Source: a virus. From it: DNA of 50,348 nucleotides. The notes beneath the pieces were generated by a model, which saw only the letters and a list, made by a program, of their open reading frames with translations, was not told the DNA's origin and ran no database searches. The first letter of the stretch is position 1, and the number at the start of each line of letters is the position of its first letter. This document shows, one piece after another, positions 24,651 through 48,035 of the stretch. The position numbers and the translations under genes are program-made. The stretch covers positions 1-50,348 of IMG/VR virus record IMGVR_UViG_3300044824_000086. The stretch is one strand, 5' to 3'.

Positions 24651-25547
24651 CTATTTGGCGATTCTGAGTTTACGCACGGGCGTCAAATAGCCTCGTGGGT
24701 TGGTCATGAGCGTCAGGTTGTAACGATTGGCTATGTGCTCACGATAGATTTGGTCTTTATACGAAGCGCGTTGGCGAGCCTCTTGTTTCATCGCTAAGTC
24801 GCTAATGACGTATTTACCAGCTTTAACCTTGGGAGACTTCTCTTTCAATAACTCCACCCACGCCGGAGACATATCGTCGACGGTCTCCACGCTACGACGC
24901 CACGCCATTGGTATCGCTCCCCCACATTGGAAACAAAATTCGACGATTTGATCGGTGAAATGTAATGGGGAGCGACGCCACCAGCCTACCTCGATAGGCC
25001 ACGCTTTGCTACCATCTCCATTAAGAAGGTCGAGATTCGCTGCCACCTCACAGAAATAAGCACCTCGAGGCGTGATGGCTGCGGACCAACTATTCTGGAC
25101 CCAACAATGGTCGATCATGTAGCACTGCTCGATTGGGTCGGCAATAACCTCACTGATCTTTACGAGCAGAGGCGCGTGTAGGATGTCATCGCGGGAATGG
25201 TCATTAATGAAGATGTGGCCGAAGGTCGTAGAGATTACTTCGCTATAGTGAGTGTAACCGTCTGGCAAAGTGGTCCATAACCCAAGTTGGTCTTTAGGAA
25301 ACTTCGACCTCGCATACTCGCACATCTCAACGAAGTGCTTGTGTAATAGAGGCTCGGCTCCTTGGAAACCAATTACGCCACGATAACCTTCCATTGAGTC
25401 GATAGCTTGATGAAAGGTCTCAAGGGTCATATTGGTAAGTTGGTCTTGTTTGAAGTGACCAACGAAGCGTGTACAATTGGAACAATGTTTGACGCATCGA
25501 TTTGTGATCTCTATAGCTATTGAATCCATATCTCGTAGAGGTCTCAT
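24651..25547 (-). CDS. Radical SAM enzyme with C-terminal Cys region (298 aa)
   Basis: CVKHCSNC at residues 18-25 is the CxxxCxxC motif that binds the [4Fe-4S] cluster of radical SAM enzymes. FQGAEPLLHKHF lies about 40 residues on and matches the GGE-type S-adenosylmethionine region. LWTTLPDGYT follows as the next barrel strand. Further cysteines (CYMIDHCW, YFCEVAA, FCFQCGG) suggest a SPASM-like auxiliary cluster domain. Such enzymes often modify peptides or sugars. The gene is coupled (ATGA) to the zinc-ribbon gene and follows a glycosyltransferase within the virion cluster. The substrate is unknown. Confidence 0.75.
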   Translation of the reverse strand: MRPLRDMDSIAIEITNRCVKHCSNCTRFVGHFKQDQLTNMTLETFHQAIDSMEGYRGVIGFQGAEPLLHKHFVEMCEYARSKFPKDQLGLWTTLPDGYTHYSEVISTTFGHIFINDHSRDDILHAPLLVKISEVIADPIEQCYMIDHCWVQNSWSAAITPRGAYFCEVAANLDLLNGDGSKAWPIEVGWWRRSPLHFTDQIVEFCFQCGGAIPMAWRRSVETVDDMSPAWVELLKEKSPKVKAGKYVISDLAMKQEARQRASYKDQIYREHIANRYNLTLMTNPRGYLTPVRKLRIAK

Positions 25548-25781: not shown

Positions 25782-26606
25782 TTACATCACCCCCACTGGA
25801 ATTTGCTGAAGGCCAGGAGGTAACATCATACCGGATTGAGGAGCGAATGGTTGGAGACGTTGCGCTGCCTGCTGAGCTTTAATTGCCTCGATATAGTCGT
25901 GGTATTTCTCGTCGACCTCAGGTAGAATCATCCCCCACAGGACCAATATCTCAAGCATCTTTTGGACCTTCGTTTCGATGGGCATTGTGTATTGGTGCCA
26001 ATAGTAGTTGTCGTAAGGGCGATTGAATTTGGGCTTGAGGTCCTGCTCGATGGTGAGATGTTTCAAGCCGAATCTCGCTATGTTGCGACTGAGCGTATAA
26101 TCGTCCATCAAGTGCGCCGGGTCTATTATCCCACTCATCTTCTCACTACACACTGGAAAGATATTATTGATGGCCTCTTCGCGGGTGAGATCAAGGGGAT
26201 ACCACAGGTCAATACACCAATCACTCGCCGCACAGAACCAATTGCAAGCGCCGATATATCGTCCATCCCGTTTCTCGTATCCTGTGGGGCGAAATCTCAT
26301 CGCGGCCATATCCTTACCTGTAAATAGGACCGTATCTTTATGAAGCAACGATGTTACGTCCATAAGGTCGGGGTTGATAAGGGCGTCGGCGTCGATATAG
26401 ACGTTCCAATCGTTATCTTTTCCAAGGTCGTATATCTGTAATTTCTCCATCGCCGGAGGTAGGTGAGGCGACTTCCTATCCGATATGATGTGAAAGTCGG
26501 CTCCTATCTTCGAGGCGTAGTGACGAAGCCACGGAAACGTAAGCTCCGTTAGCGCTGGTGCGTAATTATCAACAACCACGGTGAACAAGACTTTTTTCTC
26601 TCTCAT
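25782..26606 (-). CDS. GT-A glycosyltransferase-like protein (274 aa)
   Basis: The N-terminus KKVLFTVVVDNYAPALTELTFPWLRHYASKIGADFHII is the first Rossmann-like strand-helix of a nucleotide-sugar transferase. VYIDADALI at residues 69-77 has the D-x-D metal motif (Asp72, Asp74). GACNWFCAASDW and DDYTLSRNIARFG are typical later elements of GT8-like enzymes. The last 25 residues are Pro/Gln-rich. It lies just upstream of the zinc ribbon and radical SAM genes. It may glycosylate a virion protein or host surface sugar. Confidence 0.7.
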   Translation of the reverse strand: MREKKVLFTVVVDNYAPALTELTFPWLRHYASKIGADFHIISDRKSPHLPPAMEKLQIYDLGKDNDWNVYIDADALINPDLMDVTSLLHKDTVLFTGKDMAAMRFRPTGYEKRDGRYIGACNWFCAASDWCIDLWYPLDLTREEAINNIFPVCSEKMSGIIDPAHLMDDYTLSRNIARFGLKHLTIEQDLKPKFNRPYDNYYWHQYTMPIETKVQKMLEILVLWGMILPEVDEKYHDYIEAIKAQQAAQRLQPFAPQSGMMLPPGLQQIPVGVM

Positions 26607-29190: not shown

Positions 29191-29376
29191 TTACGTTAGG
29201 TTGATGATCGCGCCCTGGAGACGTGGCTGCGTGCAAATGAGGTTGCCCATCGTGAGCAATTGCCTCACGTAGGCATCCTGATCTGTGGGAGTCTTCTCCG
29301 AGGTCCAACTAAAGTTCTTATTCTTATTTAATACGAGTTTCCAGAAGTCTGTGTTGAGGAAATACATAATCCCATT
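29191..29376 (-). CDS. Major capsid protein, exon 2 (61 aa)
   Basis: Reading from 29376, the frame gives NGIMYFLNTDFWKLVLNKNK and continues to NLICTQPRLQG before the stop at 29191. It fits exactly after exon 1, which ends DNHCP in the same codon phase. The spliced protein is 316 residues. The tail has the MYFLNTDYW...QPRLQG pattern common at the end of phage major capsid proteins. Codons upstream of 29376 in this frame belong to the intron core, so a start at 29481 is not real. Confidence 0.8.
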   Translation of the reverse strand, partial: NGIMYFLNTDFWKLVLNKNKNFSWTSEKTPTDQDAYVRQLLTMGNLICTQPRLQGAIINLT

Positions 29377-30076
29377 CGTTCTGTTACTTAGTAACCTCTT
29401 ACGAGGCGGGCGATCATTTCTGTCGCCTCTGCATGTTTCCATGCAGTCCAGACTATATCTTAGCTTTCGCTCTCCGTACATAGTCGTTACACCTTCCTTT
29501 CGTCAACTAACGAAAGGCTCGGCTCGGTATTGCCTTCGACGTCACTCGTTAAGGTGTCCACCGAGTTCTCGGAGTTTTCAATATTAAGCATGGGAAGGTC
29601 TATATACTCCTTATGTTTCAAAGCTGTAATTTGGTCATATAAATCAGTCATCTGAACCATAACGTCTTCAGGCACTCGATTAACTCGAACACCATGCTGT
29701 TTATATCGCTGACTGATACCAAATAACTTAATAGCAAGATCAGCTTCTTCAGCTTTGATTATAAGTAAGTCTTTGATAGCAATTAAAAAGAGCACACCTT
29801 TCAATCCAGTAACCATCCAACGATAAGTTGTCCGATGATTCTGTCCCCTCTCAGATTCCTTATATATGGAACCTTCAAAGACTTTTTGCAGTTCTATCAA
29901 GGGATAAGGGTTACAATTCTTGATATGAACGACTAATGTGTAGAAAACGTTACCGCTCTTTCTCAAGACCTTATTAAAGGTTACGCAGCCTTCTCCATCA
30001 AAGAACCCTGCAAAATATGAAAGTTGTTGTTCTTCTGTCATTGCTCCTCCCTTTAGTTTAATAGGCCCCCTTGCTG
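29377..30076 (-). mobile_element. Group I intron in the major capsid gene (700 nt)
   Basis: The 5' splice site: the exon ends GCCCU and the guide GGGGC follows after a short loop, with the U-G wobble at the junction. The 3' end is G at 29377. The core is recognisable: GGCAATACCGAGCC (P-type element, 29521-29534), GACTA (29481-29485) pairing with TAGTC in AAGATATAGTC (29451-29461) as P7, and a stem CTGCATG/CATGCAG with GAAA loop as P9. More hairpins (GGCGA/TCGCC, GTTAC/GTAAC) follow. Exons join in phase 0. It carries the LAGLIDADG gene at 29487-30041. Confidence 0.85.
29487..30041 (-). CDS. LAGLIDADG homing endonuclease of the intron
   Basis: The start at 30041 (ATGACAGAAG) lies five bases after AGGGAGGAGC; a longer frame would begin in exon 1. 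LSYFAGFFDGEGCVTF near residue 10 is the LAGLIDADG helix with catalytic-type Asp and Glu. LKGVLFLIAIKDLLIIKAEEADLAIKLF gives the second half of the core, as in single-motif enzymes that act as dimers. The length, 184 residues, is usual. Its stop falls within the P7 region of the intron, so coding overlaps the ribozyme core. It would promote intron homing into intronless capsid genes. Confidence 0.85.
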   Translation of the reverse strand: MTEEQQLSYFAGFFDGEGCVTFNKVLRKSGNVFYTLVVHIKNCNPYPLIELQKVFEGSIYKESERGQNHRTTYRWMVTGLKGVLFLIAIKDLLIIKAEEADLAIKLFGISQRYKQHGVRVNRVPEDVMVQMTDLYDQITALKHKEYIDLPMLNIENSENSVDTLTSDVEGNTEPSLSLVDERKV

Positions 30077-30841
30077 AGGGCAATGGTTATCTACGACCAG
30101 AGCCATGTGGCCATTAAATTCTATACCCGAGAAGCCCACACTGGCCAAGTCCGCGTTCGATCCATGCTCAGCGAAGAACCGTTGCTGAGGCTGAACACGA
30201 GCCCATATCTTATCGTAGATCGCCTGACACGTTACTGCAAGGTCAGGTTTACGTTTACCGATTGTGCAAAGGCCAATCATCTGGTTGATGATGTCGACTG
30301 TGACCGGTCCACCCGTGGCGTTATACTGAGCCTTCCACCACGTCGCGTCGGTTGTGCGCTCGAGGTTACCATAGATGTCGTAGTTCGTTCCATCATCTAC
30401 GGCGTTGGCGAGACCGTCGAAGTCTTTGTTGTTATTGCCTGTGCCATCAGTAAACAACATCGCGCTGAGCAATTCGTCCATCGTCATCGAGGCCGTTTCC
30501 ATCTTCGACTCCAATAGGCCCATTATTTTCTCATCACCCTCAGCTATGGCGAGGTCGGTCCCTGGAATCGTCACGTTTACGTATAGAGCCTTCCAAAGCC
30601 ACTCAGCTTGGGTCTGCGTCTGCTGATAGCCTATGTCGAAGGTATCCATTCCGAAGTATGACCCTCCAGGGAGCATCTTGTAGATAACTGGCTGGACGAT
30701 CTTCAAGCCACTGTCGAACACTATCTTTGACTTAGCGAGAAGCCTCGCCAAAAACGCGTTCGATATAAATATCTGCTCCTGAAGCTCAGGGAGATATTTC
30801 TTTCTTACTGCTACGTCAAGGTCGTTATAACTTAGTGCCAT
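30077..30841 (-). CDS. Major capsid protein, exon 1 (255 aa)
   Basis: ATG at 30841 follows TAAGGAGATGGCAC. The protein begins MALSYNDLDVAVRKKYLPELQEQIF and continues through VYKMLPGGSYFGMDTFDI, MDELLSAMLFTDGTGNN and FNGMA-type segments to DNHCP. This matches the plan of HK97-fold capsid proteins of short-tailed phages, with the MEMDELLS-type helix and final FGGIxV-like segment. Without splicing, translation runs seven codons into the intron and stops at 30053. It follows the scaffold gene directly. Confidence 0.85.
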
Positions 30842-33004: not shown

Positions 33005-34744
33005 CTATGCTACCCTCGGTATTTGGTGCATACCTTGCTCTTGATGACCACCTGCGCCTTGCGACGGTGTTTTAGCCTGTTTCTGCTTGGCTCCCTTTCC
33101 ATGACCCATCGGTTCGACGCCCATCATTTGCTCAACGATTGTTCGTTTCAATACTTCGTCACGATTGGGAACCTCAAGGGTATCCAACACATATTTCCTA
33201 TCGACGGCCCCCATCTGAAATAATTGCGTCGCCACCATCCCCTTTTGCCACTTAACCATCGATAACGACGAATCCGGCATAACCTTAAATCCGAATAGAC
33301 GATAGGCGGCCTTATATGGTACGTTCGCTTCGTCGATCGCCTTACGGATGAGATTACGCTCGAATAGATATTGTTTATAATGCTCGGTCTCGCCTACGAT
33401 GGCCAATACGCGATCGTCGGTATAGAATTGAATGATGCGACTAACGATCTTATGACCGACGCGTTCCATTAATTTCTCAATCTGTCGAGCCTTCAATCTG
33501 ATCGCGGTCGTAGAAGCGAGTTGTAATAGCTCGACGCCTACGCCACTTGTCAACTGACCGGGTTTTTTACCACTGGAAACTTCTGTATCTCCAGCCAAAT
33601 CTTTAAGCCCTTGCACCAACATCGTAGCGATTTGAGTGAGTCCGCTGGGGAGGGCGGTGCCGGATTCGCGACGGAGGTTTCGACCTGTGCGGACTTTGAC
33701 TTTTTGCCCTGGCTCATTCGATAGATTTTTCCAATCTTCTGCGGTGAGCGCATCGTAGTCTCCTATCCAGATCGCATTGCTCATAAGGTTAGCATTCTCT
33801 AATATCGTCGCTAAGAGCTTATTGAACATCATTTGGGGCATCTCTAATTGAGATAATTCGGTTATCCCATACGCGCTATCGATGTCCATATTCCACATCA
33901 TCGAGTCGTATGGAATTTCCCCATCCATATAAGGGTTATTTTCGTCCTCGACGATACGACCTCCCGCCACGACGATATGCCTCTGTGCGCTATAAAGGCG
34001 CTGATCGTTCTCGTCTAATTGGCGGTCCATTAGCCACCAATCGTCGACGATCGAACGAGGTACAACCGACGATCGCGAGGTATCTCCAAGGCCGAATAGT
34101 TGCTTCGCCTTGGATAATAGTCCGTGGCCACCTTCGTCACGATTAGAGTAATCTGCTTTAATATCGTCACGAACCGAAGGGTATTTCTCAGCGAGGTAGT
34201 CGGTTGGACGGATTGTACGCATATTACAATATTCGCCGTAAGGGATGGCGTAGGCTCGTTTGATAAAGGGGTCGAAGATGAAGTTACGAGGATCAACGAC
34301 GACGATATCAACATTCCCATTACCGTAGTCGAGGGTACGGTCCCAAGGGGTCTTAACGTGGCATAGGCCGAAGACTTGTTCGAGGGTGATGAACTCGGTT
34401 AACTTTGCGCCGAATTGACGCTCGTCGAATATGGATTCCGAACCCTTCTTAATAACCTCCGCGGCGGCGTCCATATTAGGCCCCATCTTCATCGGGACGA
34501 TATCAACGATTGGTTTACTATCCGTCAATAGCGATACCTTCTTCTCTATCGCTTGGCCGAGATAGTTCATCGTAGCGTTGATTTTATACGATGGGCGACG
34601 CTCCGGCCATATCTTACCTCTAAGGATATCGTTAGCTCTATCCCACTCTTTGCTATATTCCTCACGATATTTCTTACCTTCGTCGTAGCACTTGTCGAGG
34701 TAAGCGATTATATCTTTCTCAGCTTTGCCGATGATATTAGCCAT
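33005..34744 (-). CDS. Portal protein (579 aa)
   Basis: The ATG at 34744 overlaps the previous stop (TGATG). The sequence has the usual portal order. An N-terminal helix (KDIIAYLDKCYDEGKKYREEYSKEWDRANDILRG) is followed by SYKINATMNYLGQAIEKKVSLLTDSKPIVDIVP. WDRTLDYGNGNVDIVVVDPRNFIFDP is the wing strand set, and LLATILENANLMSNAIWIGD starts the stem/clip. The C-terminus is Gln/Lys-rich. It lies between terL and scaffold, as expected. It forms the 12-mer ring through which DNA enters and leaves. Confidence 0.8.
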   Translation of the reverse strand: MANIIGKAEKDIIAYLDKCYDEGKKYREEYSKEWDRANDILRGKIWPERRPSYKINATMNYLGQAIEKKVSLLTDSKPIVDIVPMKMGPNMDAAAEVIKKGSESIFDERQFGAKLTEFITLEQVFGLCHVKTPWDRTLDYGNGNVDIVVVDPRNFIFDPFIKRAYAIPYGEYCNMRTIRPTDYLAEKYPSVRDDIKADYSNRDEGGHGLLSKAKQLFGLGDTSRSSVVPRSIVDDWWLMDRQLDENDQRLYSAQRHIVVAGGRIVEDENNPYMDGEIPYDSMMWNMDIDSAYGITELSQLEMPQMMFNKLLATILENANLMSNAIWIGDYDALTAEDWKNLSNEPGQKVKVRTGRNLRRESGTALPSGLTQIATMLVQGLKDLAGDTEVSSGKKPGQLTSGVGVELLQLASTTAIRLKARQIEKLMERVGHKIVSRIIQFYTDDRVLAIVGETEHYKQYLFERNLIRKAIDEANVPYKAAYRLFGFKVMPDSSLSMVKWQKGMVATQLFQMGAVDRKYVLDTLEVPNRDEVLKRTIVEQMMGVEPMGHGKGAKQKQAKTPSQGAGGHQEQGMHQIPRVA

Positions 34745-35040
34745 CAGTCTAACCACCTACGAGAATCGAACTCTAATCCATGACGTTTAAGGTAATTAAC
34801 CTCCTCGACATATTCTTCCTCCTCTATTGAGATCGAGGTAGGTTCGCCATCTCTCATATAGCCCCTTTCGACCGCACTTAACGACTGCGAGGAGTCAGCC
34901 GCTATAGATTGATGAGGTGCGGAGTGAATTACTTCCGAGCGACTACGAAGGCGTATATTCGAGATGACGAAACCTACCCCGATGCCGATGAGGAGGGCGA
35001 CCATTAGATAGACCAATAGTGTGATTGTGAGGTTAAGCAA
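34744..35040 (-). CDS. Single-pass membrane protein (98 aa)
   Basis: Residues 3-30 (NLTITLLVYLMVALLIGIGVGFVISNI) form one long membrane helix with a basic following stretch (RLRSRSEV). The rest is soluble, Ser-rich, then acidic (EEEEYVEEV). No lipobox is seen. The gene overlaps the portal start and the previous gene by a few bases. It could be a membrane anchor for assembly or a spanin-like part, but it has no clear match. Confidence 0.55.
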   Translation of the reverse strand: MLNLTITLLVYLMVALLIGIGVGFVISNIRLRSRSEVIHSAPHQSIAADSSQSLSAVERGYMRDGEPTSISIEEEEYVEEVNYLKRHGLEFDSRRWLD

Positions 35041-47836: not shown

Positions 47837-47845
47837 TCGCATCAT

Positions 47846-47916
47846 TCACGGATCGTCTAATGGTAGGACGATTGGCTTTGACCCAATAAATGCAGGTTCG
47901 ATTCCTGCTCCGTGAG
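47846..47916 (+). tRNA. tRNA-Gln (anticodon UUG)
   Basis: Acceptor TCACGGA (47846-47852) pairs perfectly with TCCGTGA (47909-47915), and the discriminator base is G. The D-arm GTCT...GGAC, the anticodon stem ATTGG/CCAAT with loop CTTTGAC, and the T-arm GCAGG/CCTGC with loop TTCGATT are all present. The anticodon TTG reads CAA for Gln. CCA is not encoded. It is the only tRNA seen and may supply a rare host codon. Confidence 0.85.
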
Positions 47917-48035
47917 TTTATATGAAGGAGGTATAACGAAGTAACTAAATCGAGTTGGGGAGGTGACGACACAAACAGACGTACCAAAGGAAGTGACGAA
48001 CCAACTAATTAATCTAATCAAAGGAGAACGAATCA
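47917..48035 (+). other. Spacer with possible short peptide
   Basis: The gap has GAAGGAGGTATAACG and later AAGGAGAACGAATCA, the site for the next gene. A 26-codon frame from a GTG near 47964 (VTTQTDVPKEVTNQLINLIK) ends across the next ATG. It lacks a good ribosome site, so I do not call it a gene. Confidence 0.3.

Follow-up and report, generated by a model that had tools for sequence, protein, structure and literature searches.

A group I intron with a LAGLIDADG endonuclease gene in the major capsid gene of a virus from IMG/VR

Does the major capsid gene of this uncultured phage end early, or is it interrupted by an intron whose removal restores its end? The viral record IMGVR_UViG_3300044824_000086 has 50,348 bases, all of them within the window (the whole stretch of DNA that was analyzed), and carries a split capsid gene on its minus strand. 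According to the original prediction, which gave no strand, this gene is interrupted at 29377–30076 by a group I intron that carries a LAGLIDADG gene. These coordinates hold, on the minus strand, and a mobile group I intron of 700 nt almost certainly interrupts the gene after codon 255. Exon 1 (30077–30841, minus strand, 255 codons) ends in DNHCP at 30077, and exon 2 (29191–29376, minus strand, 61 codons plus stop) starts in the same phase at 29376 and runs from NGIMYFLNTD to IINLT, the DNHCP end and the NGIMYFLNTD start being those originally proposed.

The two exons are parts of a single protein of the PHROG 9953 family (major head protein), to which exon 1 belongs. The unspliced open reading frame matches this family with E = 2.3e-40 (139.9 bits), and exon 2 by itself matches positions 267–328 of the 329 in the profile (E = 5.5e-8), which is the end missing from exon 1. 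The alignment of the spliced protein with capsid families, suggested beforehand as a check, bears this out: the joined 255 and 61 codons give a protein of 316 amino acids that scores 182.4 bits, with residues 5–314 covering profile positions 9–328, and an independent HMM gives 254 bits for the spliced form versus 188 for the unspliced one. Exon 2 adds exactly the 61 C-terminal residues that had been said to depend on splicing. Capsid homologs occur in phages Mx8, Mx9, BUCT555, and others. Homologs ending near residue 255, named at the outset as contrary evidence, were not seen, as nine annotated phage proteins align uninterrupted through the exon 2 region and the frame is open across the junction in all IMG/VR homologs with the G-x-M-Y-F-L-N-T motif (30/30). 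The closest homologs have open frames of 314–316 codons, and that of the closest one in IMG/VR (L069) has 316, the predicted spliced length. By profile scores, homolog frames, and the scan of junctions described below, removal of the intron gives an intact capsid gene, and the annotation of its product is corrected from 262 to 316 amino acids.

The capsid gene lies in a cluster of structural genes, with a P22-like portal at 33005–34756. Queries with capsid exon 1, the portal, and the exon 2 region found no DNA-level or close protein relatives of the phage in IMG/VR. No DNA-level relative with an empty site was found, and hence the empty site is known at the protein level only. In the same-strand run as the virion genes is a putative radical SAM protein (24651–25547, minus strand) with a CxxxCxxC motif, for which the Pfam match to Radical_SAM (E = 6.6e-5) is under the curated cut-off. 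A protein of 274 amino acids at 25782–26606 (minus strand) looks glycosyltransferase-like by eye, with a DxD-like YIDADAL, and has no match in Pfam. The sole tRNA found is a tRNA-Gln with anticodon TTG (47845–47917, plus strand).

Both splice sites have the nucleotides expected of a group I intron. The last base of the 5′ exon is U (30077), the last base of the intron is G (29377), and exon 2 follows in phase. The U-G wobble and guide pairing announced for the boundary are found in P1 (30065–30081, minus strand), where GCCCU (30081–30077) pairs with GGGGC (30069–30065), with a terminal U·G at the splice site; the outermost pair, 30081-30065, has a probability of 0.98 in a fold of the whole intron. 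When 165 frame-keeping U/G pairs were scored with the capsid HMM, the junction 30077/29376 was at most 0.4 bit from the best one, and it was the one found with a P1. Splicing at 30060/29380 instead would give a protein of 323 amino acids and scores 254.6, or 0.4 bit above 30077/29376, but inspection by eye gave no P1 for it, its product disagrees with the 314–316 codons of the closest homologs, and the P1 with its U·G fits 30077, so that these alternative sites are extremely improbable. No clear partner for a P10 pairing of exon 2 was seen by eye in the P1 loop. Weak P10 pairings are common among group I introns.

The ribozyme itself is detected by covariance search, a check proposed with the original prediction, which had named the lack of a group I hit as contrary evidence. 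With an E-value threshold, Rfam Intron_gpI matches 29651–29429 with 49.8 bits (E = 2.2e-11); when the record is searched with this family alone, E is 2.2e-13. The default Rfam scan gives no report at the intron because this score is 0.2 bits under the gathering score of the family, which is 50. The presence of the endonuclease gene between P2 and P3 also leads the model to mis-assign P2. The stretch 29590–29377 (214 nt) folds with a z-score of −6.5, and none of 200 shuffles was equally stable.

The catalytic core (29429–29574, minus strand) contains all the helices from P3 to P9, including the P3/P7 pseudoknot, as in group I introns. These are P3 (29574–29570/29476–29472), P4 (29565–29560/29528–29523), a 4-bp P5 (CCUU/AAGG), P6/P6a (29522–29492), P7 (GACUA at 29485–29481 with UAGUC at 29455–29451), a 3-bp P8 with a GAAA loop (29471–29462), and P9, a 7-bp stem with a GAAA loop (29446–29429). 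The P7 strands GACTA and TAGTC and the GAAA-capped P9 had been recognized in advance, and so had a P-type element, GGCAAUACCGAGCC, which corresponds to J5/4 and the 3′ strand of P4. In the minimum-energy fold, the remaining 3′ part (29377–29428) forms the hairpins P9.1 (29427–29409), P9.2 (29406–29395), and P9.3 (29395–29383), the last two sharing one base, followed by the terminal G. On the 5′ side, a P2 (30063–30058/29587–29582) and a P2a (30051–30046/29597–29592), spanning 29582–30063 with the endonuclease gene within their loop, are proposed from pair probabilities of 0.5–0.7; their duplex energy alone is not above chance.

Pairing in the core is conserved with introns of two other phages (IMG/VR loci L108 and L141). 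In a hand alignment of the three cores, 15 helix columns are compensated, that is, both sides changed with pairing kept, and these changes fall in P3, P4, P5, P6, P8, and P9. Such covariation in helices that are all intact is hard to reconcile with a degenerate remnant that no longer splices, for which the capsid gene would end at residue 262 and exon 2 would be a relic. An Rfam score under the cut-off, the short P8, and the absence of P7.1/P7.2 could be taken as signs of decay, but the last two recur in other capsid-gene introns, and a 3-bp P8 is common to the related introns L107, L108, L126, and L141. In addition, the frame of exon 2 is still open, its conserved motifs YFLNT and MGNL are retained, and the homologs examined all extend past the junction. 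A remnant is therefore very improbable, and we retain the reading of an intron that splices.

In most of the aligned phage introns, P7 and P3 are separated by P7.1/P7.2, an insert that marks subgroup IA. Here UGUA alone separates P7 from P3, and the sequence thus lacks the P7.1/P7.2 of group IA2, the typical phage subgroup. In blastn searches, parts of the core match introns in annotated split phage genes, namely those of the KIL1 terminase, the PVP-SE1 primase/helicase, the RHph_N3_13 ribonucleotide reductase, and the RudolfBernhard_Bas96 Sak4, and Rfam also finds introns at these loci. Matches between the intron and plasmids are weak and short.

The intron encodes a LAGLIDADG homing endonuclease of 184 codons (29487–30041, minus strand), with its ATG at 30041, its TAA at 29489–29487, and a Shine-Dalgarno sequence GGGAGG at 30051–30046. 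The family, as originally named, is confirmed by Pfam PF00961 (E = 1.2e-6, above cut-off) and by the predicted fold, and phrog_5046 matches with E = 1.2e-20. The AlphaFold model (pLDDT 85.5) has the alpha-beta-beta-alpha-beta-beta-alpha LAGLIDADG fold, and its best Foldseek matches are I-CreI (E = 6.5e-8), I-CvuI, I-Vdi141I, and I-MsoI. With I-CreI (PDB 4aae, 1bp7) the protein shares the predicted fold and the single-motif form, but the identity is only about 20%, and by sequence the protein has no relative in PDB and no match among annotated phages. The motif YFAGFFDGEG is invariant among 15 relatives, with E17 at the acidic position. Most relatives in IMG/VR are apparently free-standing, and they mostly end near residue 146. 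In the model, residues 148–184 have no secondary structure and a pLDDT of about 57. The gene has a G+C content of 0.37, versus 0.52 for the flanking genes.

The gene overlaps the ribozyme core, as the original prediction also stated. The 3′ end of the frame (29487–29604, minus strand), about 38 tail residues, overlaps the 3′ strand of P2, P3, P4, P5, and P6, and the stop lies just before P7. The body of the endonuclease thus extends to about 29604, shortly before P3 (29574), which makes the P2 loop the most likely location of the gene, and the tail at 148–184 that the model leaves unstructured is an incidental product of the ribozyme core sequence.

This layout suggests how the intron would work. 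The pre-mRNA would adopt a compact group I fold with P1 to P9 but no P7.1/P7.2; guanosine would attack after U30077, and the freed U would attack after G29377. Ligation would join CCU to AAU and restore the frame of the capsid protein of 316 amino acids. As the capsid product is needed in large amounts, splicing must be efficient. On an unspliced message, ribosomes would read seven intron codons and stop at 30055–30053, for a predicted product of 262 amino acids that ends in QQGGLLN and lacks the conserved C-terminal part. The endonuclease ATG follows this stop at a distance of 11 nt, so that such ribosomes could initiate there by translational coupling, and because the endonuclease frame continues through P3–P6, its translation should disrupt the ribozyme. 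Each transcript would then be either spliced into capsid mRNA or translated into endonuclease, a competition that should follow from the layout. As for a role of P2a in hiding the Shine-Dalgarno sequence of the endonuclease, 5.6% of shuffles perform equally well and there are stronger partners elsewhere, which leaves it a mere possibility.

The endonuclease, probably an I-CreI-like homodimer, would cleave an intronless capsid gene close to the exon junction, and repair of the break would then copy the intron into the cut gene. A CCAUU/AAUGG inverted repeat around the junction was considered as the target of a dimer and rejected, as its odd center misfits a 4-nt overhang. One may also consider, as a less likely reading, that the intron splices while its endonuclease no longer cuts or moves it, either because it has become a passenger, fixed or domesticated, or because it serves as an RNA maturase. 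A maturase role has been published for the LAGLIDADG protein of a Thermotoga intron (PMC3984707), and it is unusual for the core to encode the tail of an endonuclease. However, the active-site motif is intact, E17 included, the frame is complete and preceded by a Shine-Dalgarno sequence, and the predicted fold is I-CreI-like, all of which speaks against this reading.

Several parts of this arrangement have published precedents. Mycobacteriophage LittleE has a probable group I intron in its capsid gene with a LAGLIDADG I-CreI-like gene, and its splicing was shown by RT-PCR and protein sequence (PMC3706429). The intron described here likewise lies in a capsid gene and encodes an I-CreI-related LAGLIDADG endonuclease. 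In LittleE, however, the opposite strand encodes the endonuclease and the class of the ribozyme was left unclear (PMC3706429), whereas here the endonuclease gene lies in sense orientation and overlaps P3–P6, in a capsid gene of PHROG 9953. A further precedent is lactococcal phage Tuc2009, which PMC3706429 names as having a group I intron in its capsid gene. A survey of phage introns documents endonuclease genes that overlap conserved parts of the ribozyme, and it reports one LAGLIDADG family (PMC11878797). The intron is thus a clear but ordinary mobile element, and the combination is new only as an instance.

Closer counterparts come from IMG/VR, which was searched for the compact layout with a ribozyme sequence pattern only. 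The pattern matches 61 stretches, so that the layout is widespread. Host genes were assigned by the open frame beside the core, which is downstream for most loci and upstream for L094 and L132, and numbers are raw counts of loci irrespective of kinship. About half of the 61 are in the PHROG 4574 family of major tail genes (32 in one sequence cluster, in which L085 was typed). The others include introns in major capsid genes of five families besides PHROG 9953 (PHROGs 267, 10, 2263, 371, and 1357), in a tail gene (792), in a portal gene (145), and in a possible RNA polymerase subunit gene. In this survey, compact introns are often in virion genes.

Among these, L108 and L141 share with our intron the 36-nt P7-P3-P8-P7 layout, J7/3, the 3-bp GAAA-looped P8, a nearly identical P9, and an endonuclease frame that runs through the core. 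They differ in that their endonuclease is HNH by motif (by eye) and their capsid protein belongs to PHROG 371 (from a search run on L108), which is unrelated to 9953. No published description of these two introns was found. In L109, L136, and L094, as here, a LAGLIDADG gene runs across the compact core within a major capsid gene, but the capsid family is PHROG 1357, the insertion sites are others, and the frame stops downstream of P7, not upstream of it as here.

These observations allow the tentative proposal, possible but short of probable, that compact introns (without P7.1/P7.2 and with a GAAA-capped P8) are a class that has repeatedly invaded the genes of the most abundant virion proteins (major tail genes, and major capsid genes from at least six PHROG families) and swaps LAGLIDADG and HNH endonucleases framed through the core, so that translation and splicing would compete on each transcript. 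Any tie between the compact layout and capsid genes is not exclusive, as introns with an insert of P7.1/P7.2 length are also found in capsid genes (PHROGs 1328, 9953 twice, 283, 11589, and 29), as well as in polymerase, reductase, and terminase genes. A 2014 review names polymerases, reductases, and terminases (PMC3984707), and our survey suggests that capsid genes are a more usual home of phage group I introns than that review implies. It also suggests that introns of this sort fall narrowly short of detection in default Rfam scans.

Some loci from IMG/VR deserve mention on their own. L084, L085, and about 30 similar loci represent a widespread compact intron of PHROG 4574 major tail genes. 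L149 and L201 are group I introns with an insert of P7.1/P7.2 length, located at other sites of PHROG 9953 capsid genes. Near weak group I matches, L020 and L038 have LAGLIDADG proteins with apparently two motifs in one frame.
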